From: Catenulispora acidiphila DSM 44928 | GTDB lineage: Bacteria > Actinomycetota > Actinomycetes > Streptomycetales > Catenulisporaceae | NCBI RefSeq assembly: GCF_000024025.1 | Contig: NC_013131.1 | Span: 3,472,001-3,536,000 of the forward strand | Length of the DNA: 64,000 nucleotides | Direction of reading: 5' to 3' | Part shown: one piece after another, positions 9,703-24,229 of the stretch | How the letters are laid out: every line of letters begins with the position of its first letter | Position numbering within the stretch: position 1 is the stretch's first letter | Translations under genes and position numbers: made by a program | The notes under the pieces: model-generated | The model's input: the letters and a program-made list of their open reading frames with translations, nothing else | Databases searched by the model: none | Told to the model about the DNA's origin: nothing

Positions 9703-12700
9703 CTAGTCCTTGGTGAGGTTGATGTCGTCGCAGGCTGAGGTGCCTGCTGTGTCTCGGTAGCAGTAGATGTCGACGCTGGTTCCGGTGGCGTCGGTGGTGA
9801 ACTGGTCGGTGAGTTGGGTCCAGCCGGTGGCTGTGGTGTTGGCGTCGGTGACGCTGCCAGCGGTGTCGTACTGCTTGGCTCCCAGGTAGGTGGTGTTTCC
9901 GTCGGTGCGGACCCATCCGGTGAGGGTGTAGGCGGTGTTGGGCGTCAGGCCGGTGACGACCTGTTCGATGGACGCGTTGTCGCCGGTGGCGGCGTTGAGT
10001 TGTCCGGCGTAGGTGCCGGCGCGGGGGTTGGTGGTGGTGATGTCGGCGTTATAGGAGGCGGCCCAGCCGTCCAGGGTTCCTGTTTCGAAGTCGGGGTTGG
10101 CCACGGTTGCCGGGGTTTGCGTCAAGGCGAAGTCGTCGCAGGCGGAGGTGCCCGCAGTGGATCGGTAGCAGTAGATGTCGACGCTGGTGCTGTTCGTGCC
10201 GGTGGTGAATTGGCTGGTGAGTTGGGTCCAGCCGGTGTTGGTGGTGGTGGCGCCGGTGTCGTCGCCGGGGTCGGCGTCGTAGTCCTTGGTACCCAGGATG
10301 GTGGCGCCGCCGTCGGTGCGGATCCAGCCGGTGAGGGTGTAGGAGGTGTTGGGTGTCAGGCCGGTGACGACTTGTTCGATGGATCCGTTGCCGCCGGTGG
10401 GTGCGTTGATCTGTCCGGCGTAGGTGCCGCCGTGCGGGTTGGTGGTGGTGACCCCGGCGTTGTACGACTCGTTCCAACCGGCCAGGTTCCCGGTCTCGAA
10501 GTCGGGGTTGCCCACGGCGCCTGCCGCGGGGGTGGCCAGCAGGGTGAAGTCGTCGCAGGCGGAGGCGCCTGCGGTGGGCCGGTAGCAGTAGACGTCGACG
10601 CTGGTGTTGGTTGCTCCAGTCGTGAATTGGTTGCTGAGTTGGGTCCAGCCGGTGGCTGCGGTCGTGGCACCGGTGTCGTCATCGGCGGCGTCGTACTCCT
10701 TGGTGCCCAAGATGGTCGCACCGCCGTCGGTGCGGACCCAGCCGGTGAGCGTGTAGGAGGTGTTCGGCTTCAGCCCACTGACAACTTGCTCGACGGACCC
10801 GTTGCCCCCGGCAGGCGCGTTGATCTGCCCGGCGTAGGTACCGCTGTGAGGGCTATCGGTAGTGACCGCAGAGTTGTAGGACGCGCTCCAGCCAGACAGA
10901 TCCCCCCTCTCGAAGTCGCCGTTGGCGACCGGCGCACTGCTGAGGACGATGACCTGTTTGGTGGTTGACGCGCTGGCGCCGTTGTCGTCGGTAACCGTCA
11001 ACTTGACTGGGTATGTGCCTGGCGTCGAGTACGCGTGGGTCGCGACATTCGGGGTCGGCGATGTGGCGCTGGTGCCGTCGCCGAAATCGATGGCGTAGGC
11101 GGTGATCGAGGCTGCTCCGGGGTTCGTCGCGGAGTCGTCGATGGTGATCGGTTGCCCCACGCTGGACACAGGGGTCACGGTCTCGGACGCGACCGGGGCG
11201 GTGGACGTGGTGGGAACCAGCTGCAGGGTGTCGACGCCGATGTTGTACCGGTTGCCGGTGCTGGCTGCGTTCGTGCCGTTCAGCGTGAAGGTGAAGGTGT
11301 GCAAACCGCCGGCGGCCAGGTCGATTGTGCCGAAGTCGACGGGATTGACGGCGACGGCGGGGTTGTACGCATCGTACGTCCGAGCCAAGGTCTGCTGATT
11401 CGGTGCCCCAGCATCGACGGTGAGTGTCACCTTTCCGTAGTCGGTGGCTGAGGTCATGGTCGGGACGACGCGGTAGGTGCCCTTGTACGGGACGTACCAC
11501 GGCAGCGTCAAAACTGCGCTCGGAAGGGTGTTGTTGAACATCTCCTGGGCACCGCCGGACCAGCTCACACCGCAGCAATCCGCCTGGGGTCCGAGCCCGC
11601 CGGTTCCGGTCCGACTGATGTTGTAGAGCAGCTCGGCTTCGGCCCGCTGGGTGGACCCGGCTGCTTCGGGAACCAGCCAAGCCTGCTGAAGACCGTTGCC
11701 GCAATCCCACAGCCACGGGTCGGTGCCGGAGTTGGTGGTCGCCCCGTTGTCGAGACAACGTCCGGATGCCGGGTTGTACAGCTGAGACCAGCCCGTGATG
11801 CCCGGGCTCTGCCGCACTTCGAACCGTTGAAGGCTGCTGATGGCGCCGAGCTGGGGATCGGCGGGGTTCGTCACGGTCACGCAGTCGCTGATCTGCAACG
11901 GGGACGTGTTGGCGGTGCCGCCGTTGTTGGCCCAGGTCGAGCCGATGGTCAGGCACTTGTGCTGGTTCGCCGTCCAGCGGATGGATCCGTCGTCAGTGAA
12001 GGTCCAAGTCTGGTTGGCGTTGTTCAGACACCGGTATTGCTGGAGCGGTGAGCCGTTCGCGGCGTTGCCGCCGGGCAGGTCCAGGCACAGCGGGCCGCCG
12101 CCGTTGTTCGTGCCCTGGGTCCAGCCGATCTGGATCGGGCCGGTCGAGGTCGTCGGGTCGTGGCCGTCGAGGGTCGTGACCTGCTTGACGGGGGTCCACG
12201 CGTTGCGGGAGGCGCCGTCGGCCAAAGTGGCCGTCGCCGGTCCGTCGGAGGTGGTGATCGGACCGCCGGCAGAACCCGGCAGCAGGGTGAGCTTGCCGTT
12301 CTGACCGGTCCCCCAGAGAGCGGGGTAGGCACCCGGGCCGCCTTCAGTCAGGGTGCCGTGGCCGTCGGTGCTCACGGTCGGGCTGCCCGCCCCGATCAGC
12401 GTCAGGTAGCTGCTGGTCGGGTACGAACCCTGGGTGGTGGCGGTCCCTACCCGGCCGACGGCGTGGGCGGCGTTCAGGTTGCCCAGACTGGTCGGGTCTT
12501 CGACGCCGTTCGAGGTCTTGTTGTCGAACTGCCACAACGTCCCGGTGGTGCGGTCACGGGCCCACAGGTCGGGCAGGGTCCCGCCGGACGCGTCACCGGG
12601 GATGGTTCCCGGCGCTATCAGGTCGACGTTGGCCCAGTTCCAGCCGGGCAGTGCGGAATAGCCGCCGGTCAAGTTGGAGGAGCCGATCAGCTTGGGAGTG

Positions 12701-15700
12701 GTGACCTGGTCGCCACCAGCCGGTTGGAACAGCCACAAGTTGGTCCCGCCGTTGCCGTCGTCCTCAACGGTGATGAGGTTGGTGCGGCCGGCGAAGGTGC
12801 CCGCCTTCTGGCCGGTGACCGAGCCGAAGGCCAGGATTTGTTTGACCTTCGACCAGTCGGCGTTGTCATAGCTCGCGCACTTGTTCCTGCTGTCGACTGC
12901 GGGATCGCAGGTTGGCCGGGTGACGACGACCTGGTGGGAGCGGGAGAACTGATCGCTCGGCACAGCGGCGCCGAACACGGCGGAGTTCAAGTAGTAGTAC
13001 AGCGCGTGTGTCGTGAGAGAGTACGCATACAGATCGTCCACCGGGACGCCGCGCGCGGCTCCGCGGTGGCTGATCAGAGTGTTGCTCCAGTCATGGCCGT
13101 CGGGTGCGGCCGACGCCGGAGCGGCCTCGATGGCCGCCTGTTGAAGGCCGGCCGGCAGTGACGTGGGCGGAATCGCGGGGTCGGAGTTCCCGGGTTGGAC
13201 GACCAGGTGGGCGTTCCCGTTGGCGTCGGGTGTCACCAGGACCAGGTCGGGTACGCCGCGTCCAGTGACGTCGCCGAGTGTGGTCGTGGCCTTGGGGTTG
13301 CCTGGTAGGTAGAAGTCGTACTGCGACACGGATGAGTAGTTGCCTGCGACGTCTACTGCTCGGATCCACAGGGTGTTCTCACCGAAGGTGGTGCGGCCGA
13401 CGGGCAGAGTGAGGGTGCTGGTTCCGGAGGTGTATCCGACCCCGGTCACCGTGCCACCGCCGTTGTTCGCGTTGCCCACCATCGAGGCGGAGGTGTTCAG
13501 GGCCCAGTCGTAGTGGTCGATGGGGACTCCGCTGGTCTTGCCCGAGATGGTGAAGCTGCCGCCGGCGCCGGCGACGGAGACCGCAGGCTGCCCGATGATC
13601 GGAAAGGCCGTCGAGGAGATTTCGGGCTTGTCGGGCGACGTGAGGGCCGAGGTGAAGAAGCACTCGTCGTTCGAGTTGTTCAGACCCGGCTCGGAGTTGG
13701 AGGAGCGTGGGTGGCTGAGGTCTTCGATGGCGCCGAGGCCGGCGGTGTAGGTATCGCCGTCGTTCAGCATCAGGCTGGGGTCTTGGTGGAGCGCGGCGGT
13801 TTGCTGGCTGTATGTCGCGCTCTGGGTGGCGTGGTACCAACCGTCGGAGCCGGGATGGTCCTTGTCCGCGCTGTTCACCGCGGGTCCTATGATGCTCCCG
13901 GTTCCGTTCGCGAAATTGGTCATATCGTTGAGGAAGAACAGCGGTTGCAGAGGAATGCTGGGATCGATGTCCTCGATCTCGGTGTTGACCGTGATCGTGT
14001 TTCCGATGGACTTCCGAACGTAGCCGTGGGCGTTGCCGGTCGTGTCGCACGGACCGCCGGCCGTCGGGGTCGGAGTGATCGAGGTACCGACCACCCGTGG
14101 CGACTCCCAGAAGGTGATGCTCAACTGGGCGCTGCCGGGGTTCTGAGGGTCGTACTCGGGGGAGCCGTCCTCCCAGTCGTGGCGGAAGAAGGCCCACAGA
14201 CCGGTCTGGTCCCTCTCATCATGGAACTTCAGGCCGACGTCGACGGTGGCGCCGCCGTGCTCGTACACGTTCTGGACCTGGTTGCTGTCGTTGAACTGGA
14301 GCTTGTAGCCGATACCGCCCAGACCGGAACACTGCGTCGCACCGTGTGAGTCGACCGGGTACACCCCGTTGCCGCCGCTGATCACGGTGTCGTCCTGCCC
14401 GTTCCACGGCGAGGTGTAGCCGGCGTAGGCGTTGGCGCCCAAAGGGTTGCCGTTGGCATCATGCAGAGCTGTTTGCCATGTGACGCCGGGGAAGAACCGG
14501 TCGATGGCGACCACGTCCATCAAGTGCGGATTGCCAGAGCAGTATTGGCTGGTCACAGTGAACTGCGCGCTCATCGTCGAGGGATCGACGCCGGCCGGGA
14601 TGAGCGAAGTGTCGACGTTGTACTCGAACATCGAGCGGACGATGCCGGAGGCGCCGTACCATCCGGCGCGCATCACCTCTGTCTGAGATCCGCCCTCCGC
14701 GTCGAAGTAGCTGGTACCCGGATTACCCGAGTGGATCTCAGCCCAGTTCTGCAATGGCGCGTACGCGGTGGGGTCGATGTAGACCGGGAACTTGGTGTTC
14801 TTGCCTGTCAGAAGATCCTTGACGGGCTGCACCTTGATGGTCGACCCCGTCAGCGACTCGGGCATCGTGGCTGTCTGCGCTGCGCTGCCGGGACCGTCCG
14901 CGCTGCTCGCGGTGGGGCCGTCAGCGCTTTGTTGAGCCGGTGCCGCAGATCGGGCGAGGGCAGTCGTGGTGCTGGTGCTCGAATCCCACATCAACGCCGT
15001 GCCGGTGCCGAACACGGCCGTGCCGGCGGCGTCGGTGGCGACGATCGCGCCGTTGACGTTCGTGCCGAGTTTGAGGTCCGGGCTGGTCGTCGTGCCCAGG
15101 GCGATCGAGGACAGAGCTGGATTGGCGGCTGCCGCCGCGGTCTTGACGATGAGGACTTCGCGGATGCCTTCAGCGTCTGCCGTGACACGCAGGTCTGTGT
15201 CCGGATAGACGTTCGGGTACAGGGCGGAACTGCCGGACAGAACGGGTTTGGGGAGTGCGGCGGGCCAGGTCAGCGTGGCCCTGTGGCCGCCGTCGTCCAG
15301 CCGGGCCAGCGCGCCGGTGCCGCCGCCGGAGAACGTGATCCCCAGGACCGCGGCCTTGGCGTGCACCGAGCCGTCCGCGGCCCGGACCAGGGTCGTGTCG
15401 ATCGGCCCCCACGAACCGGTGACATCGGTACGGACGGCGTCTGTGTCCTGGGTGAGGTTGAAGGAGCCGTCCGGGTTGGCGTACATCGTGTCGTGCGCGG
15501 TGTTCGCGGCCTCGACGACGACCTGTTTCTTGGTCTGCTCCGCTTTGGCGTGGGCGACCGCCATCGCCTTGCGCAAGGCGGCCTGCGGGTCGGGAGCGGC
15601 CGGCGCCGGTTTGGCGGCAGCAGCGGCGCTCGGGCCCTGGACGGCGGCGGGAGCCGCCGCGGCGGGCTGGTCCGACCTCGCAGCAGCGGCGGCGCCAGCC

Positions 15701-15798
15701 GCCGCGATCGGAGCCGCGGTGATCGCGAGCGCCGGCGCCGCAACCAGGACAATTGCATTTCTCAGTCGTCGAATACGACTGTTTCGGTGCTCCCGCAC
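9703..15798 (-). CDS. Giant secreted multidomain carbohydrate-binding protein
   Basis: 2031 residues. GTG 15798 is preceded by GGAGGG and opens a signal peptide (basic RRLRN, then VLVAAPALAITAAPIAAAG). Order: Ala/Pro linker; an N-terminal region like that of actinomycete RHS partners (about 50-330); a DNRLRE-like part (about 340-560, SMFEYNVDTSLIP); FG-GAP/VCBS-type repeats (about 840-1175, GDVTGRGVPDLVLVTPD); ricin-type lectin with QQYRC and QTWTF motifs (about 1220-1380); a CBM6/35-like domain (about 1390-1535); PKD domain (YAIDFGDGTS, HAYSTPGTYPVKLTV; about 1540-1625); and three 130-residue CBM-like repeats, each starting NPDFETG/NGDFERG and ending YR-TAG-SACDD. No hydrolase or toxin motif was found. 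It probably binds cell-surface or polymer glycans. Divergent from the RHS gene, a recurrent pairing. Confidence 0.8.
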   Translation of the reverse strand: MREHRNSRIRRLRNAIVLVAAPALAITAAPIAAAGAAAAARSDQPAAAAPAAVQGPSAAAAAKPAPAAPDPQAALRKAMAVAHAKAEQTKKQVVVEAANTAHDTMYANPDGSFNLTQDTDAVRTDVTGSWGPIDTTLVRAADGSVHAKAAVLGITFSGGGTGALARLDDGGHRATLTWPAALPKPVLSGSSALYPNVYPDTDLRVTADAEGIREVLIVKTAAAAANPALSSIALGTTTSPDLKLGTNVNGAIVATDAAGTAVFGTGTALMWDSSTSTTTALARSAAPAQQSADGPTASSADGPGSAAQTATMPESLTGSTIKVQPVKDLLTGKNTKFPVYIDPTAYAPLQNWAEIHSGNPGTSYFDAEGGSQTEVMRAGWYGASGIVRSMFEYNVDTSLIPAGVDPSTMSAQFTVTSQYCSGNPHLMDVVAIDRFFPGVTWQTALHDANGNPLGANAYAGYTSPWNGQDDTVISGGNGVYPVDSHGATQCSGLGGIGYKLQFNDSNQVQNVYEHGGATVDVGLKFHDERDQTGLWAFFRHDWEDGSPEYDPQNPGSAQLSITFWESPRVVGTSITPTPTAGGPCDTTGNAHGYVRKSIGNTITVNTEIEDIDPSIPLQPLFFLNDMTNFANGTGSIIGPAVNSADKDHPGSDGWYHATQSATYSQQTAALHQDPSLMLNDGDTYTAGLGAIEDLSHPRSSNSEPGLNNSNDECFFTSALTSPDKPEISSTAFPIIGQPAVSVAGAGGSFTISGKTSGVPIDHYDWALNTSASMVGNANNGGGTVTGVGYTSGTSTLTLPVGRTTFGENTLWIRAVDVAGNYSSVSQYDFYLPGNPKATTTLGDVTGRGVPDLVLVTPDANGNAHLVVQPGNSDPAIPPTSLPAGLQQAAIEAAPASAAPDGHDWSNTLISHRGAARGVPVDDLYAYSLTTHALYYYLNSAVFGAAVPSDQFSRSHQVVVTRPTCDPAVDSRNKCASYDNADWSKVKQILAFGSVTGQKAGTFAGRTNLITVEDDGNGGTNLWLFQPAGGDQVTTPKLIGSSNLTGGYSALPGWNWANVDLIAPGTIPGDASGGTLPDLWARDRTTGTLWQFDNKTSNGVEDPTSLGNLNAAHAVGRVGTATTQGSYPTSSYLTLIGAGSPTVSTDGHGTLTEGGPGAYPALWGTGQNGKLTLLPGSAGGPITTSDGPATATLADGASRNAWTPVKQVTTLDGHDPTTSTGPIQIGWTQGTNNGGGPLCLDLPGGNAANGSPLQQYRCLNNANQTWTFTDDGSIRWTANQHKCLTIGSTWANNGGTANTSPLQISDCVTVTNPADPQLGAISSLQRFEVRQSPGITGWSQLYNPASGRCLDNGATTNSGTDPWLWDCGNGLQQAWLVPEAAGSTQRAEAELLYNISRTGTGGLGPQADCCGVSWSGGAQEMFNNTLPSAVLTLPWYVPYKGTYRVVPTMTSATDYGKVTLTVDAGAPNQQTLARTYDAYNPAVAVNPVDFGTIDLAAGGLHTFTFTLNGTNAASTGNRYNIGVDTLQLVPTTSTAPVASETVTPVSSVGQPITIDDSATNPGAASITAYAIDFGDGTSATSPTPNVATHAYSTPGTYPVKLTVTDDNGASASTTKQVIVLSSAPVANGDFERGDLSGWSASYNSAVTTDSPHSGTYAGQINAPAGGNGSVEQVVSGLKPNTSYTLTGWVRTDGGATILGTKEYDAADDDTGATTAATGWTQLSNQFTTGATNTSVDVYCYRPTAGASACDDFTLLATPAAGAVGNPDFETGNLAGWNESYNAGVTTTNPHGGTYAGQINAPTGGNGSIEQVVTGLTPNTSYTLTGWIRTDGGATILGTKDYDADPGDDTGATTTNTGWTQLTSQFTTGTNSTSVDIYCYRSTAGTSACDDFALTQTPATVANPDFETGTLDGWAASYNADITTTNPRAGTYAGQLNAATGDNASIEQVVTGLTPNTAYTLTGWVRTDGNTTYLGAKQYDTAGSVTDANTTATGWTQLTDQFTTDATGTSVDIYCYRDTAGTSACDDINLTKD

Positions 15799-16187
15799 GA
15801 ATCCCTCCCCGGTGTTCGCCCAAACGGCAGACGGAGTCAGAAAGTAGCGTGGTGGCGGCGGCGGCACAAGATTGCGACTCAATGGCAAAGGGTGGATATT
15901 CGCGACCGTATGGTTTGTCGGCCGTGTCCTGACTCGACCACCTTGGCCTGCGGTTTACCGGCCCGCCGCGAGGGGGATCACTTTCGGTCGTCCCGTTCGG
16001 GTAAGGCCTCCCGACCCCGGTTCGGCAATTACGGAAAGTGACAGCGGGGATCGGCTATTGCGCCAGATCTCAGTGATCGAGTACCGTTCCGTGCGTTTCT
16101 GAGTTATCGGCATCGGTGGTGCTCGTCGTCGCGGAATTCCGACACCGGATTTCGTGTCCGCTGGGCTGCTTGACAGGGGTGGGGGCA
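15799..16187. promoter_or_regulatory. Shared upstream region of the two giant genes
   Basis: 389 bp between two divergent starts, with no gene. An inverted pair TCACTTTC (near 15979) and GGAAAGTGA (near 16032) spans about 60 bp and could bind a common regulator; no consensus promoter could be assigned. Confidence 0.4.
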
Positions 16188-19100
16188 GTGGCAACACAGC
16201 AGAGGTCTGTGACGAAGGCTCGCGTGATGCGTCGCAGACGCCTCATGGCGGCCGCCGTCGTGACGGCGTTGACGATCGGCGTCGTGTCGGGGCTGCCGCA
16301 CAGCGCGGATCAGGCTCAGGCCGCGGGCAAAACCAAGACCGCCAAGTACAACGGCAAGTCGGTGGTGACCGACACCCCGATCAAGACCGGTCCCTGGCAC
16401 GGCAAGAACCCTCCGGCTCCGCCGCCTGCCAAGGGCTCGATCCCTTCTCAGACGACCTTCCCCGCCGCGGCTCAGGCGGATCTCACGTTGACGGCTCCGA
16501 CCGCCTCGGGAGCCCGCACCTCGGCATCTGCGGATACTGTTTCGAACGTGCCCTATGCGAGCGCTGCGGGCGTTCCTGTCGCCGTTGCCGCAGACCCGGC
16601 CGACAGTCAGAACCTTGCCTCGTCGGACCAGCTTCCGTCCCGGGTCAAGGCGGGAACCGCGGCGAGCATCCCGACCACGGTGCACGTGACCGTCACCGAT
16701 CATGCGACCGCTGTGGCCGCAGGTGTCTCCGGCGAGATCGTCTCCGTTTCCCGGACAGACGGGAAGACGGGCGCAGCCGACGCCGCCGTCGCCTTGGACT
16801 ACAGCTCCTTCGGTCAGGCTTACGGCGGCGACTATGCGTCCCGGCTGGATCTCGTTGCTCTGCCGCCGTGCGCGCTGACCACGCCGAAGGTCGCCGCATG
16901 CCAGAAGGAGACCCCGCTCCGCTTCGCCAATGACGCCACCCACCAGCGGTTGACCGCATCGGTGACGATCCCCGGTGGAACCCATCCCAGCGTGAGCACG
17001 AAGTCCGACGGGAAGTCGGCAGCGCCCGGCGGCACGCTGGTCCTCGCGGCCACCGCCACCGGGAGCGGATCTGCCGGGTCCTACAACGCCACCTCGCTGT
17101 CGGCGTCGAACTCGTGGTCCGAGTCGAGCAACACCGGGAACTTCACCTACAGCTACCCGATCTCTGTGCCGCCGGCCATCGGCGGTGCCGCGCCGACTGT
17201 GGCCTTGTCCTACGACTCGGGAGCGGTGGACGGCCACTCGACCGTGGAGAACGGGCAGTCGTCCTGGATCGGCGACGGCTGGGACTACAGCCCCGGTTAC
17301 GTCGAACGCTCCTACGTGCCCTGTTCGAAGGCCAAGCCGACCTCGTGGTCGACCTCGACCGACAACTGCTTCGCGCTGGACGCGAACGGCAATCCCGTGC
17401 CGGCCCTGACCCTGTCGTACGGCTCGCACGGCGGACAACTGGTCCACGACGATGGCGACACCACGAACACCCACTTCAAGCTGCAGCAGGACGACGGCAC
17501 CCAGATCGACCTGCTACCGAACACCGCGACGACAACCGCCACGTCGGAGATGTTCCGGATGCGGATGCCCGACGGCACCACCGCTTATTTCGGTGCCGAT
17601 ACTGTGCCCGCGGAGCTGAACAACGGCGTGGCGGTGAAGCCGTTCGGGGCCACCAACTCGACCTGGTTCGAGCCGGTCTTCAACAACCCGGCCGCCAATA
17701 GCGTGTGCAAGGACCCGACGAAGGCGACCGCGGCGAACTGCGAAACTGCCTGGCGCTGGAACCTCGACTTCGTCGTCGACCCGCACGGCAATGTTCAACA
17801 GGTCTTCTACAACGCCGATCTCAACGCGTACGGGCGTGGCACCGCGCAGACCGCCGCGACGTACGTCCGGGGTGGTACGCCGAAGGAGATCGACTACGGA
17901 TGGCAGCTTTCCGACGCCATCGCGGGCCGGCAACCCGGTGCCAAGGTCTATTTCGGCAGTGTGCAGCGTTGCGTCGACCCCGCGTTGGACGGCGGGTACG
18001 GAGCTTCCTCCGGGGGCAGCGCGGGATGCCAGAGCGCACCGATCACCAGCGCGAATCTGCCCGGATTCCAGGACACGCCGTATGACCTGTACTGCCCGAC
18101 CACCAATGCCACCTGCATCGAAGCGGCGCAGAACTCCCCGACGTTCTGGTCGACGATGCGGCTGGCCACCATCGTCACCGAGGTCCGGGAGAACAACGCT
18201 TGGCACTCGGTCGACCAGTACAACCTGTTCGACCAGTTCAACCTGGCCGGTGACCAGAACAACTCGTTCAACCGGCCGCCTTTGTGGCTGGCGGCGATCC
18301 GTCATTGCGCCGCGGGCAACGTCGACACCCACCAGATCTGTCTGCCGGCCTCCGGCGCCGGATCGCTGTCCGTGCCGGACGTGACCTTCGCAGGCTCGGG
18401 TGCGCAGATGGCGAACCGCGTGCCGGGCGTTACCGGCAGCGGTGGGACGAACCTGGGCTTGACCCCGATCGACCGTGCCCGCCTGGTCACCATCACCGAT
18501 GAGCTCGGTGCCCAGACCACGATCACCTACGACGTGCCCTCGGCCTTCGCGCTCGGCTGTACTGCTCCGCCGAGCGGGCCTGCCGACTGGCACAACACCA
18601 AGCTCTGTTACCCGGAGTACTGGACCCCGCCGGGCGAGCCTTCTCCGATCACCGACTGGTTCCACAAATATGTCGTCACCGGGATCACGACCAAGGACGA
18701 CTCGGGCACCGGTGCGTCTCTGGCCACGTCGTACACCTACGACACCACGACGGGCGCGGCGTGGCACTCCAATGACTCGGAGTTGGTGACCGATCCCAAG
18801 GCCCGTACTTACGACCAGTACCGCGGTTTCGCCTCCGTCACCACGACGCAAGGCGACGGCAGCGACACACCGGCCGGCCAGACGACGACCACGTATTTGC
18901 GCGGTATGGACTGGGACCCGGATATCAAGGCCGTGGCCGCGGGCGTTGACTGTCCGAACACCGCAGCGGGTATCACGCAGGCCGAGTGCCCACGCGTGAG
19001 CGTCAGGGACTCCCAGGGCGGATCGACGACCGACGACGTGATCTTCAACGGCGAAGCGCTGGAGACTCAGACCTTCACAGCGGCCAACGGCAGCGTGTGG

Positions 19101-22100
19101 AACGACACCGTTTCCCGTCCCTATCTCTCAGCGCCTGTGGCGGCGCACGCGCGAGTGAGTCCGCTTCCGGCATTGCGTGCGCGTCAGATCGGTACCGCGG
19201 CCGCGCTCACGACGACACCGACGGCCGCGTACGGGACGGTGCCCAAGGGCACCCGCACTGTGGAAACCGACAACCTCTACGATCCCAACCTCGCCCACGG
19301 TGGCCGGACGATCGCCTCATGGGCCAAGAGCCCGGTGTACAGCCAGACTCCCGCGCAGCCGGACACGACACCGTCGCTGTGTACGGTACCCAGCTATGCC
19401 ACGGATTCGGCGAAACCCTGGATAACGGGCTACACCGATCAGATCATGACGTTCAGAGCTGCCACCCCGTGTTGGGATTCCTCCAACAACGTCGCTTCGA
19501 CGACGGCGGCGACCGCTGTGTCTGGCACTCAGAGCTTCTACGACAATGACGCAGGCGCGAACCCCACCACGGTGTCGACGGGCGATATCACTGTGGCGAA
19601 GGTCTTGGATTCCTTCAGCGGTTCGACTCCTGTGTTCGTGACCAAGTCCAGCAGCGGCTATGACGGCTACGGCCGAGTCATCCTGAGCCGCGATGCGCTG
19701 AACCGAGCGGCCAAGACCGACTATTACTCGGCCGCAGCTGGGGAACTGCCGAACAAGACCGTGGGGACCAATCCCATGGGTTGGACAAGTACCACGCTGA
19801 TCGACCCCACACGGTCTGTGCCCACGGACACGACCGACGCCAACGGCAAGACGGTGCACGAGACGTACGACAGCTTGGGGCGCTTGACCGCGGAATGGAA
19901 CATCGACAATCCGTACACGCCTACCAACACGCCGCCAGCGAACTCCGTCTTCAAATACACCGTCAACACCGCGACGCCGTCCGTCACCGAGACCGACAAG
20001 TTGCGCTCTGACGGTACCTACACGGCGGGTTTCACCCTGGAGGACTCCCTCGGCCGCACCATCCAGACACAGTCGAGCCCGGTCAACGACGTCTCGGGGC
20101 GGGTCGTCACAGCGACCACGTACGACTCGCTCGGGCACGCGGCCAGCGTCACAGGTCCGGAATACGACTCGGCGAACGCTCCCTCGGGAAAGCCTTGGGC
20201 GGCAGTGTCGGGTTCCCATCCGTTGCGAGCCACCACCACGCTCTATGACGGCATGAGCCGACCGACAGTGGTAACGACGTACTCGGCAGCCAACGCCGTC
20301 ACGCATTCGGTCACGTCCTATCCCGGCGCCGACCGGACCGACGTCACACCGCCGATCGCGGGCGCGGTGCCGATAACCGGGCCGGACAACCAGCCGACGT
20401 CTGGAACCAAGGCGTCCACGCTCACCGATGCGCGCGGGAACACCACAGCGCTGTACACGTACAAGGGCCTGGACCCGGCCGCCTTCCCGTTTGGTACCGC
20501 CTCGGCCGCCGACGTCACGAGCTACTCCTATGACGCAGCTGGGAACCAGACCCAGGTCAAGGACGCGCTCGGCAATACCTGGACCTACACCTTCAACCTG
20601 CAAGGCCAGAAGACGACCGCCGATGACCCCGACACCGGGGTCACGACCTACGGCACGCCGGCCAACGGTGCGAACCCCTACGCCAGCGGCTACGACGCGG
20701 TAGGCAATCTTGTCCAGGTCCAGGACGGTCGCGGAAAGGCGTTGCACTACTCCTACGACGCGCTGAACCGTAAGACAGCCGAGTACTCGGGAACTTCGAC
20801 CTCGGGGACGCAACTTGCACAGTGGGATTTCGACAGTCTGGCAAAGGGTCAGCCCACCGACAGCAAGCGGTTCACCACGGGTGCCGGTCAGCCGTACGTC
20901 AACGCGGTCGCGGGGTACGACGCGGGCTACCGCCCCACAGGGCAGTCGGTCACCATTCCGTCCGGGGACGGCAATAACACCTTGGCGGGTACATACACCA
21001 CGGGCCTCACGTACACCCCGATCACCGGCCAGCTGTACCAGACGACCCTGCCGACCCTGCCGACCGGCGACGACCTGCAGCCTGACGTCGTCACGAACGG
21101 ATACAACGACAACGGATTGCTGACCAGTACCGGCGACTACTTCGCCGACCTGCTCACGGACTCCTCGTACACGGAGTACGGCGAAGTCCAGCGCCGGCTG
21201 CTCGGCGACTATCCGAACCAGGTCGCCGCCGACACCGTCTACGACCAGGCGACGCGCCGCGTCGGCAACTACACAGTCAGCGCTCTGGCCTGGAACCGGC
21301 CGATCGACACCACCGCCTACACGTACAACACGGCGGGGCAGATCACCTCGGAGACCGACCTCCAGGGCAACGCGACCAGCTACAACAGCTCCACGGGCTT
21401 GGTCTCGGCCAGCGCTGCCCAGGATGTTCAGTGCTACGCGTACGACTACGCGGGCCGGCTGTCTGCGGCATGGACTGACAACAAGATCGCCAACGGCACC
21501 GTCTTCGGCACAGTGAACGGCGTCCAGGACACCTTCGCCGCGCAGCCGCCGGATGGCGCGTTCGGCAGCTGCGTCGATCCCCAGCCCTCCACGAGCAACC
21601 GCGCGGCGGCCAGCGCCCAACTCACAGGCGCGGGCGCTTCCCCGGCGGCGTACTGGCAGACCTACAGCATCGACGCGGTCGGTGACCGCAAATCGGAGAC
21701 CGACTACAGCCTCGGTACCGACCCCAGCCAGGACACCACCAATACCTACACCTACCCCGCAGCGGGTACCCGCGCTCCCGGCAGCGGACCCCACACTCTG
21801 AGCCAGGTGACCCACACAACGGGCACCAGTCCCAGCATCAGCGACACCTACACGTATGACAACAGCGGCAACCTGAAGACGCATGCAATCAGCAACCAGC
21901 CGACCAAGAACCAGTCCCTGGCCTTCGACGCCGAAGGCCACCTGTCCACGGACACGGACACCGCAGGCGACAGCGCCTCCTACACCTACGACGCCGACGG
22001 CACCCAGCTGATCCGCCGTGACGCCACCGGCGCGACGCTGTACCTGAGCGGCACCGAGCTGCACATGGACACCAGCGGCGTCGTGACGGGCCAGCGGTAC

Positions 22101-23855
22101 TTCAGCTACCCTGGCGCCCCGACCATCGTGGAATCCGGCGGCAGCGCACCGGTCATCAGCTACGAGGCCGGCAACCAGCAGGGCACTGCGACCACCGCCA
22201 TCGCCGCCGGCACCGGCACCCCCGGATCGCCCGCGACACCGGACAAGAGCGTCATCGCCCGGCGCGCCTACACACCGTTCAACACCCCTCGCGGTACGGC
22301 GAACACCACCAACAGCTGGGGTCTGAGCTTCCCGGACGACCACACCTTCCTCGGCGCCAGCACGGATGCCTCCACCGGCCTCGTCGACATCGGAGCACGC
22401 AAGTACGACCCGTCGACCGGCCGCTTCATCTCCGCGGACCCCCTTCTCCAGGAGGACTCGCCACAGACCATCGGCGGCTACGCCTACGCCGGAAACGACC
22501 CGGTCGACGGAAGCGACCCCACCGGGCTGCAAATGAAGGCAGCCATCTACGGCGACGGAGGCACCACCCCGGTCGTCAACGGCCAGCAGATGCTCTCGAT
22601 CTCACCACACGTCTCCGTGAGCGCGAACAGCAAGAGCTTCCTCCATCTGTACGAGGCCTACGCCAAAGGCATGGAGTGGACGTACAGCCACGGAAGCTAC
22701 AAGGACGCGAGATCCCAGGAAGCGGCCGCATGGAACGCCGGCTGCTCCCGCATCAACGATTGCACGTTCAACGGCCTGACCACGGCCATCGGAAACCTCG
22801 ACGACACGACCCCGACCAACCGCAAGGCCACTCCGATCCAAGGCATCGACGTCGTCGGCATAGGCCCGGAGGAGCACGTGCTCGAAATGTCCGGCGACGG
22901 CACCGTGAGCGACTACACGTCACTGACGCACGGCGAACTGGGCTCTGGTGCGCTCGAGCTGGGGGTCCGGGCCGGCGGCCTCGCCATGAATCTGGCCTCC
23001 GCGATGACTCAGCAGTTCTGCCACTCGTTCGCCGCCGATACCGAAGTGCTGATGGCCGACGGCACCGACAAGGCCATTCAGGACGTCGCCGTGGGCGACG
23101 AGATCAAGAACGCCCAGCCCGACGGCCCGAACGAAAAGCACCGCGTCGACGAAATCCACAAGACACTGACCGACACGGACTTCACCGACCTGACCGTCAG
23201 CACCCCCACTGGTCCCCGAACCATCACCGGCACCCAGAACCACCCGTACTGGGACGCGACGACCGGGAAGTTCACAATCGCCTCCCAACTCAAGCCAGGC
23301 GATCACCTTCAGACCGATGATGCTGGCGCCGTCACGGTGCTTACGGTCCGCGACTACGTCTCATCGATGGTGACGTATGACCTCACCATCGACGGGCTGC
23401 ACACGTACTATGTGGTCGCAGGCGACACGCCGGTGCTGGTGCACAACTGCGGAGGCTGGCTTGACGGCCATGAGTCGAATTGTGTCTGTGACGGAACCGG
23501 CGGGGACCCAGTGTACCCGGACGGTCCAAGTTCTGCCGATGTTGATGAGGCATACGCGCAGCGCTCGGATGAACAAGATGAAAAGGAGCCAACTGCTGCA
23601 GAGGTGGCACAGAGCATCGCGAACGGTCACGCCGGGGGAAAGCACGCGGGTGACTTCCCTGGAATGACAGTCGACGATCTTGCGAGTCATACTGAATCGG
23701 TCCTCGACAACGCGGCTATGACGAAGCCGTTGAGTAAGGGCAGAATTGCCTTCTCGGACGGTATCTCGGTCGTCTTGTACGATCCGAACACCGACGATAA
23801 GGGAACAATATTTACGCCGGATGACTTCGACGAATATTGGAAGGGTTTGAGTTAG
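16188..23855 (+). CDS. RHS-repeat polymorphic toxin with Hint domain and C-terminal tip
   Basis: 2555 residues. GTG 16188 follows GGGGTGGGGG and opens a signal peptide (RRRRLMAAAVVTALTIG). A long N-terminal region precedes YD/RHS repeats at about 1155-2020 (many G-x-Y-TYDxxG forms such as YSYDAAGNQTQVKDALGN). The RHS core, about 2025-2115, ends KYDPSTGRFISADPL and GGYAYAGNDPVDGSDPTG. A Hint/pretoxin domain runs from CHSFAADTEVLMADG to TPVLVHNC (about 2278-2421), with NHPYWD inside. The last 134 residues are an unassigned tip with GHAGGKHAGDFPGM, GRIAFSDG and GTIFTPDDFDEYW; this His/Lys/Arg/Thr pattern is compatible with a metal-independent RNase-type toxin (inference). The tip DNA is visibly lower in GC than the shell. 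The next gene overlaps the stop codon and is the likely immunity gene. Confidence 0.88.
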   Translation: MATQQRSVTKARVMRRRRLMAAAVVTALTIGVVSGLPHSADQAQAAGKTKTAKYNGKSVVTDTPIKTGPWHGKNPPAPPPAKGSIPSQTTFPAAAQADLTLTAPTASGARTSASADTVSNVPYASAAGVPVAVAADPADSQNLASSDQLPSRVKAGTAASIPTTVHVTVTDHATAVAAGVSGEIVSVSRTDGKTGAADAAVALDYSSFGQAYGGDYASRLDLVALPPCALTTPKVAACQKETPLRFANDATHQRLTASVTIPGGTHPSVSTKSDGKSAAPGGTLVLAATATGSGSAGSYNATSLSASNSWSESSNTGNFTYSYPISVPPAIGGAAPTVALSYDSGAVDGHSTVENGQSSWIGDGWDYSPGYVERSYVPCSKAKPTSWSTSTDNCFALDANGNPVPALTLSYGSHGGQLVHDDGDTTNTHFKLQQDDGTQIDLLPNTATTTATSEMFRMRMPDGTTAYFGADTVPAELNNGVAVKPFGATNSTWFEPVFNNPAANSVCKDPTKATAANCETAWRWNLDFVVDPHGNVQQVFYNADLNAYGRGTAQTAATYVRGGTPKEIDYGWQLSDAIAGRQPGAKVYFGSVQRCVDPALDGGYGASSGGSAGCQSAPITSANLPGFQDTPYDLYCPTTNATCIEAAQNSPTFWSTMRLATIVTEVRENNAWHSVDQYNLFDQFNLAGDQNNSFNRPPLWLAAIRHCAAGNVDTHQICLPASGAGSLSVPDVTFAGSGAQMANRVPGVTGSGGTNLGLTPIDRARLVTITDELGAQTTITYDVPSAFALGCTAPPSGPADWHNTKLCYPEYWTPPGEPSPITDWFHKYVVTGITTKDDSGTGASLATSYTYDTTTGAAWHSNDSELVTDPKARTYDQYRGFASVTTTQGDGSDTPAGQTTTTYLRGMDWDPDIKAVAAGVDCPNTAAGITQAECPRVSVRDSQGGSTTDDVIFNGEALETQTFTAANGSVWNDTVSRPYLSAPVAAHARVSPLPALRARQIGTAAALTTTPTAAYGTVPKGTRTVETDNLYDPNLAHGGRTIASWAKSPVYSQTPAQPDTTPSLCTVPSYATDSAKPWITGYTDQIMTFRAATPCWDSSNNVASTTAATAVSGTQSFYDNDAGANPTTVSTGDITVAKVLDSFSGSTPVFVTKSSSGYDGYGRVILSRDALNRAAKTDYYSAAAGELPNKTVGTNPMGWTSTTLIDPTRSVPTDTTDANGKTVHETYDSLGRLTAEWNIDNPYTPTNTPPANSVFKYTVNTATPSVTETDKLRSDGTYTAGFTLEDSLGRTIQTQSSPVNDVSGRVVTATTYDSLGHAASVTGPEYDSANAPSGKPWAAVSGSHPLRATTTLYDGMSRPTVVTTYSAANAVTHSVTSYPGADRTDVTPPIAGAVPITGPDNQPTSGTKASTLTDARGNTTALYTYKGLDPAAFPFGTASAADVTSYSYDAAGNQTQVKDALGNTWTYTFNLQGQKTTADDPDTGVTTYGTPANGANPYASGYDAVGNLVQVQDGRGKALHYSYDALNRKTAEYSGTSTSGTQLAQWDFDSLAKGQPTDSKRFTTGAGQPYVNAVAGYDAGYRPTGQSVTIPSGDGNNTLAGTYTTGLTYTPITGQLYQTTLPTLPTGDDLQPDVVTNGYNDNGLLTSTGDYFADLLTDSSYTEYGEVQRRLLGDYPNQVAADTVYDQATRRVGNYTVSALAWNRPIDTTAYTYNTAGQITSETDLQGNATSYNSSTGLVSASAAQDVQCYAYDYAGRLSAAWTDNKIANGTVFGTVNGVQDTFAAQPPDGAFGSCVDPQPSTSNRAAASAQLTGAGASPAAYWQTYSIDAVGDRKSETDYSLGTDPSQDTTNTYTYPAAGTRAPGSGPHTLSQVTHTTGTSPSISDTYTYDNSGNLKTHAISNQPTKNQSLAFDAEGHLSTDTDTAGDSASYTYDADGTQLIRRDATGATLYLSGTELHMDTSGVVTGQRYFSYPGAPTIVESGGSAPVISYEAGNQQGTATTAIAAGTGTPGSPATPDKSVIARRAYTPFNTPRGTANTTNSWGLSFPDDHTFLGASTDASTGLVDIGARKYDPSTGRFISADPLLQEDSPQTIGGYAYAGNDPVDGSDPTGLQMKAAIYGDGGTTPVVNGQQMLSISPHVSVSANSKSFLHLYEAYAKGMEWTYSHGSYKDARSQEAAAWNAGCSRINDCTFNGLTTAIGNLDDTTPTNRKATPIQGIDVVGIGPEEHVLEMSGDGTVSDYTSLTHGELGSGALELGVRAGGLAMNLASAMTQQFCHSFAADTEVLMADGTDKAIQDVAVGDEIKNAQPDGPNEKHRVDEIHKTLTDTDFTDLTVSTPTGPRTITGTQNHPYWDATTGKFTIASQLKPGDHLQTDDAGAVTVLTVRDYVSSMVTYDLTIDGLHTYYVVAGDTPVLVHNCGGWLDGHESNCVCDGTGGDPVYPDGPSSADVDEAYAQRSDEQDEKEPTAAEVAQSIANGHAGGKHAGDFPGMTVDDLASHTESVLDNAAMTKPLSKGRIAFSDGISVVLYDPNTDDKGTIFTPDDFDEYWKGLS

Positions 23856-24229
23856 TGGCAGTCAGAGAAGTGCGACCGCTTGATCTGATCGCGACGGCAG
23901 AGGTCGAATTGCTCGACCGTGGCCTGCTGGAATGGAGTGGCCCGGCCCGATGCACTGACGAGTTTGCCGTTGCCATGGGATTTCAAAGTTATCGCAACCT
24001 CATCGAAGAAGGTCGTCGGCTTCGGCGGAATCTGAACGACAATACAGTGATTGACGCGGATGACTGGACACGTATACTACTGGCTGTGGAGATTGCTTTT
24101 GTCAGCGACCTCGCTGGTTCCGGTGTTGAATGGTCGACCACTACCGGCTATGCGGATGAATATACGATTGCGATACTGAGGTCGATCCAGCGTAAAGTTG
24201 CTGTCATTGTTAGGGCGACCGATGCCTAG
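23855..24229 (+). CDS. Probable immunity protein for the RHS toxin tip
   Basis: 124 residues, beginning MAVREVRPLDLIATAEVELL. The GTG start shares its first base with the TAG stop of the RHS gene (TAGTG), with GGAAGGG about nine bases upstream, so translation is coupled. It is a small acidic cytoplasmic protein without signal or membrane segment; no family was recognised. Low GC and relaxed codon use match the toxin tip and differ from the RHS shell, as expected for an exchangeable toxin-immunity cassette. Position immediately after an RHS tip is the standard place for immunity genes; the function is inferred from context only. Confidence 0.65.
   Translation: MAVREVRPLDLIATAEVELLDRGLLEWSGPARCTDEFAVAMGFQSYRNLIEEGRRLRRNLNDNTVIDADDWTRILLAVEIAFVSDLAGSGVEWSTTTGYADEYTIAILRSIQRKVAVIVRATDA

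Follow-up and report, generated by a model that had tools for sequence, protein, structure and literature searches.

WapA of Bacillus subtilis is a YD/RHS-type protein. One report describes for it a signal sequence, a C-terminal ribonuclease (RNase), an immunity gene and a part in contact-dependent inhibition (CDI), at least in its passages on this system (PMC5566331), and another lists it as a tRNase (PMC9990079). Here we analyse a locus of the soil bacterium Catenulispora acidiphila DSM 44928, whose genome is one contig of 10,467,782 bases; the stretch under study, hereafter the window, comprises 64,000 nucleotides (G000:C1:3472001-3536000) and encodes an RHS/YD-repeat protein of 2555 amino acids, with a Hint domain and a 134-residue C-terminal tip, followed by a gene for a protein of 124 amino acids. 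We consider it probable that the locus is a polymorphic toxin–immunity system made up of an exported RHS shell, an RNase-like tip released by the Hint domain and a 124-amino-acid antidote. Its closest functional model is WapA/WapI, with which it would share export by a signal sequence, an RNase toxin at the C-terminus and an accompanying immunity gene, all of these being predicted for the window protein; WapA, unlike the window protein, is not known to have a Hint domain.

Other described systems resemble parts of the locus. The CDI toxin of Escherichia coli O32:H37 (PDB 8EY4) is borne by a CDI-type carrier, as are CDI tips of the VENN type in Pantoea, whereas the window carrier is of the RHS/YD type. 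The tRNase domain of colicin D resembles the predicted fold of the tip, but its carrier is a bacteriocin and the Pfam model Colicin_D (PF11429) does not match the tip. Ntox35 (PF15534) is likewise a predicted BECR domain of RHS and MafB proteins, according to the section on it in the only open-access paper that we found to treat it (PMC3482391); an open-access search yielded neither a paper on 8EY4 itself nor the substrate of that toxin. The system is known in kind, and the toxin domain, unnamed in the libraries searched, can now be given a predicted fold, probable active-site residues and a likely partner. The same domain is seen in Gram-positive RHS proteins and in Gram-negative CDI systems, and the locus offers a compact pair in which to study what a change of toxin carrier does to the immunity protein.

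Carrier Protein and Exchange of Tips

The carrier matches the Pfam model RHS_repeat above its cut-off (E 6.8e-11) and the NCBIfam models Rhs_assc_core (3.1e-16) and YD_repeat (YD_repeat_2x; 3.9e-15); it possesses both the YD/RHS repeats and the RHS-associated core of an RHS/YD polymorphic toxin, together with a variable tip behind a conserved junction. The PT-HINT model (PF07591) also matches above its cut-off, and the domain retains its leading Cys and its VHN end. Every part named in the initial annotation (shell, DPTG core, Hint domain from CHSF to VHNC and 134-residue tip) was located, and the Pfam and NCBIfam matches agree. No haemagglutinin model is among the four Pfam matches of the carrier, which is of the RHS/YD type and not a two-partner-secreted CdiA.

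The RHS core and Hint domain of the window protein are matched at 36 places in 8 of the 10 genomes of the genus. Twelve of these places were taken as loci, and nine tips, that of the window included, were readable by the VHN rule. All nine differ on their common scaffold, the sole overlap being a 38-column linker between the window tip and that of L038. An open frame of more than 80 residues lies behind eight of the nine, with none at L035; these frames are candidate genes only. Single tips do recur, because the L038/L003 tip is found nearly identical in another genome (L004, in G011); by eye it also resembles the P0035 tip of Catenulispora subtropica. P0035 and L003/L004 have the linker in common with the window tip and a different core: P0035 matches it at 93% over 20% of the tip, and when the two tips are forced into a global alignment, 45 of the 108 aligned columns are identical, linker counted. 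A second Hint toxin, ending in a different tip, is encoded in the host genome itself. Further tips on the scaffold we take, from inspection by eye only, to be GIY-YIG-like (L037), HNH-like (L042) and deaminase-type-like (L033, L035).

The guanine-plus-cytosine (GC) content of the shell is 0.661 (0.849 at third positions), against 0.544 (0.632) for the tip core and 0.546 (0.54) for the neighbouring gene, which bears out an earlier remark that the tip is lower in GC than the shell. Among 1268 sliding 630-nt windows across the 64 kb, three are as low in GC as positions 23600-24229 or lower, and all three overlap that interval. The comparison of tips within the genus shows the tip, probably together with the putative immunity gene, to be an exchangeable cassette. 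It is scarcely credible that the tip is instead a non-toxic structural end of the RHS shell: we found no point in favour of this view, tips vary among otherwise similar proteins, and a profile check of the homologs of the window tip, as proposed at the outset, returned CDI-type C-termini and free-standing secreted-looking proteins, which are not plainly structural.

Elsewhere in the genome, on the minus strand (L044; G000:C1:8304003-8304065), 60 nt that match the Hint C-terminus of the window protein at 92% DNA identity survive with another short tail attached; this remnant may either reflect an exchange of tips or be an orphan cassette.

The Predicted Toxin Domain and Its Relatives

When RHS-sized proteins were searched with the tip, P0035 was the one match besides the window protein itself. 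On plasmids, tblastn gave 14 weak matches (E 3e-3 to 7e-3, 28-31% identity), 13 of them in Phaeobacter and one, labelled 'mAFB alternative', in Parasedimentitalea. Extension from these matches led to Pantoea and Rahnella (VENN pre-toxin) and Agrobacterium (DUF637), and then to Rippkaea (RHS) and Aeromicrobium; a profile, A6, was matched at E <= 0.01 by 158 of 2003 candidate proteins. Alignment A7 has 76 rows, namely 74 of the 120 A6 matches listed (of 158), the window tip and the tip of a Streptomyces protein described below. In tip numbering, I56, H60, K64, H65, R98, G118, F121, P123 and Y129 are invariant in A7, and G59, F69, T106, V107, D116, T119, A120 and L133 are conserved in at least 90% of rows. 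A hidden Markov model (HMM) of the A7 core detects the domain in three loci outside the alignment, those of Rippkaea and Aeromicrobium and L020, each time at E 1e-12 or better. These copies are imperfect: Rippkaea keeps H60 without K64, H65 and R98, L020 ends before the last strand, and that of Aeromicrobium is broken.

The initial annotation had singled out GHAGGKH, GRIAF and GTIFTPD motifs in the tip, all of which were found (Table 1), and had left the tip unassigned. With respect to named families this stands, as no Pfam or NCBIfam family covers the tip or unites the family members, and the toxin–antidote family is without an entry in these two catalogues, the ones searched; with respect to fold, however, the tip can be placed. 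The best fold matches of the predicted tip are CDI toxin 8ey4 and colicin D, and the model has the helix and four-stranded sheet of BECR RNases, with predicted catalytic residues on the helix and the last strand. In sequence, the toxin core is related to CdiA-type C-termini, as expected of a CDI CdiA tip. The model predicts a BECR/colicin D-like fold, and the RNase-like activity, put forward initially as an inference, gains plausibility from this predicted fold and from the conservation of the residues H..KH ... R ... T.

Two other identities of the tip have to be weighed. It could be a divergent member of Ntox35, in which case the domain would not be new even as a family. For that family a predicted BECR fold, conserved H and KH residues, an S/T of the C-terminal strand and occurrence in MafBN and RHS proteins are given in the pertinent part of PMC3482391; the tip family has the same pattern (H60, K64 and H65 in 76 of 76 rows of A7, T119 in 75), which the Rippkaea copy does not keep, and the 'mAFB alternative' label on tip relatives points the same way. 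Unlike the residue pattern, the Pfam model PF15534 matches none of the 76 A7 members at an E limit of 10, although HMMER's own filters discard most matches with E over about 0.1. Genome searches for Ntox35, in sets of 197 and 346, came back empty, but their controls were equally silent, and they carry no weight. Membership in Ntox35 seems to us possible, if doubtful.

Alternatively, within the same toxin–immunity pair, the tip could be an RNase of a specificity other than tRNA, such as a RelE-like ribosome-dependent mRNase, an rRNase or a general EndoU- or RNase A-like enzyme. RelE, EndoU and barnase also belong to BECR, chains of BrnT and RelE occur further down the fold list, and the two conserved histidines recall two-histidine RNase mechanisms as outlined in part of PMC3482391. 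The CDI toxin and colicin D nevertheless outrank RelE in the fold matches, and the characterised BECR toxins of CdiA C-termini are, as far as the text of PMC9086364 on them goes, tRNases with the exception of one rRNase. We regard a specificity other than tRNA as unlikely.

On Rhodobacterales plasmids, the toxin domain occurs free-standing, 130-131 amino acids in size and with a signal-peptide-like start (L016:3920-4564, L017:3908-4542 and L018:3908-4542). In all three cases a small gene lies downstream of the toxin and two genes, of about 223 and 232-234 amino acids, lie upstream.

The Partner Gene

The stop codon of the carrier (TAG, 23853-23855) and the start codon of its neighbour (GTG, 23855-23857) have a G in common, forming the TAGTG overlap that had been noted initially, and GGAAGG lies upstream. 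The neighbour is a real gene, because, with the query included, 33 homologues of its 124-amino-acid product were found at E <= 1e-3. In Streptomyces sp. NRRL WC-3626 (L002/L021), another RHS-Hint protein, with 42% identity to the window carrier over the core part and 37% over the Hint-tip part, bears a window-type tip (48%) and is directly followed by a homologue of the 124-amino-acid protein. A survey of 197 genomes of the order found the tip core in two, two more matches being confined to the linker; the partner was found in 11, one of them weak; in both tip-core genomes tip and partner are adjacent. From this linkage we infer that the 124-amino-acid protein is the cognate immunity protein. 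The view with which we began, a toxin with an exchangeable tip and a coupled immunity gene, draws strength from the toxin relatives of the tip, the pair on a second RHS-Hint protein and the nine different tips of the genus.

The same survey also has points on the other side. In nine of the 11 partner-bearing genomes no toxin core lies within about 1.5 kb of the partner. Four of the nine (L010-L013) have the partner-like gene next to what we take by eye to be a mannosyltransferase-like gene, which speaks against immunity as the sole role of the partner family there; these toxin-free homologues look as if they had settled into a second role. The nine genomes would also fit a neighbour that is an independent gene merely adjoining the toxin, with no immunity role. 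Such independence is very improbable in our judgement, given the stop-start overlap, the low GC common to tip and neighbour and the retention of the pair in Streptomyces; moreover, immunity genes without a toxin are common in polymorphic toxin systems.

Small Putative Immunity Units

Behind the toxins of Pantoea, Phaeobacter and Parasedimentitalea and the Rahnella remnant stand proteins of 57-68 amino acids that can be aligned with one another; the partner in Pantoea and Rahnella is a single unit of 66-68 amino acids, unlike the window's 124-amino-acid protein, to which it has no significant sequence match. In Rippkaea orientalis, the RHS protein is followed by a 298-amino-acid partner (L025:2835-3728) that starts with two tandem units and has a further part after them; the unit HMM matches it at 5e-47, but Rippkaea is included in that model. 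The Aeromicrobium remnant, outside the model, has one unit (E 2.4e-4), and the Agrobacterium toxin L023 has a different partner that gives no unit HMM match (E 0.5). Single units with no recognisable toxin lie on plasmids of Yersinia massiliensis, Agrobacterium and Rhizobium (L028, L029, L030, L031), L029 and L031 being unannotated.

The structural model of the 124-amino-acid protein (predicted local distance difference test, pLDDT, 87.3) consists of two successive three-helix sets with a one-residue bridge before each (bridge 6, helices 14-28, 35-40 and 46-61; bridge 66, helices 68-86, 93-97 and 101-123), the helix order also suggested by eye for single units. Sequence tests of the protein against the Pantoea, Rahnella and Phaeobacter units were not significant. 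Its hhalign probability was 1.3% against four units and, against ten, 1.4% in full, 2.9% for the N half and 0.9% for the C half, scores reached by 7, 2 and 22 of 300 column shuffles, respectively; the two halves against one another gave 0.2% and 0.6%. Smith-Waterman Z means over five small partners lay at 0.3-1.8, against -0.4 to 1.2 for reversed controls, and the best unit HMM value among 34 proteins was E 0.05, with 2.1 for the window protein. The model does no more than suggest a partner made of two fused small units. We tentatively raise the idea of an uncatalogued BECR toxin–immunity superfamily that might span Actinomycetota, Pseudomonadota and Cyanobacteriota on three carriers (RHS proteins with or without Hint, CDI haemagglutinins and free-standing secreted proteins), its immunity protein perhaps having grown from one helical unit (57-68 amino acids, in Proteobacteria) to tandems, two clear in Rippkaea and two degenerate in the 124-amino-acid protein.

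Proposed Mode of Action

The architecture, the intact Hint motifs, the tip family, the linkage of the pair and the exchange of cassettes are demonstrated at the level of sequence, and on them we base the following putative scheme. The RHS protein would be exported, probably via its signal peptide, with the YD/RHS shell predicted to enclose the C-terminal toxin; by analogy with WapA of B. subtilis, a protein with a signal peptide would plausibly need no type VI or VII system. To judge from its intact motifs, the Hint domain would cleave after VHN and release the tip, which may then enter a competitor cell. There, like colicin D, it would cleave RNA by a metal-independent mechanism, with K64-H65 on the helix side acting together with R98 and T119 of the sheet; the fold relatives make tRNA the most likely target. 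The 124-amino-acid protein, translated from the overlapping GTG, would bind the tip and protect the producer and its kin.

Features of the Locus

Table 1. Predicted features of the toxin locus, in window coordinates
Feature	Position	Strand	Basis or remark
RHS/YD-repeat protein, 2555 aa from GTG 16188	16188..23855	+	Single open frame 16116-23855; Pfam, NCBIfam matches
Signal-peptide-like N-terminus (RRRR, hydrophobic stretch, QAQA)	16188..16325	+	By eye
RHS-associated core, DPTG (22515) at its end	22314..22529	+	TIGR03696, residues 2043-2114, E 3.1e-16
Hint domain, CHSF (23019) to VHNC (23439)	23019..23450	+	PT-HINT residues 2290-2420, E 5.6e-8, over cut-off; intein_Cterm 1.4e-4
Tip, 134 aa, residues 2422-2555	23451..23852	+	Starts after VHN
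Tip linker	23451..23591	+	Low pLDDT; first part also on different tip in other genus genomes
Toxin core, BECR/colicin D-like: helices, four strands, helix	23592..23852	+	Predicted fold
GHAGGKH: H60, K64, H65 (tip numbering), predicted active-site helices	23625..23645	+	76/76 in A7
GRIAF motif in tip	23739	+	
GTIFTPD at fourth strand	23802..23822	+	T119 75/76, F121 and P123 76/76 in A7
Putative cognate immunity protein, 124 aa, helical	23855..24229	+	Helix order repeated in model

Elsewhere in the window, a divergent gene on the minus strand (9703-15888) encodes a secreted-looking product of 2061 amino acids that, by eye, has three similar C-terminal repeats.
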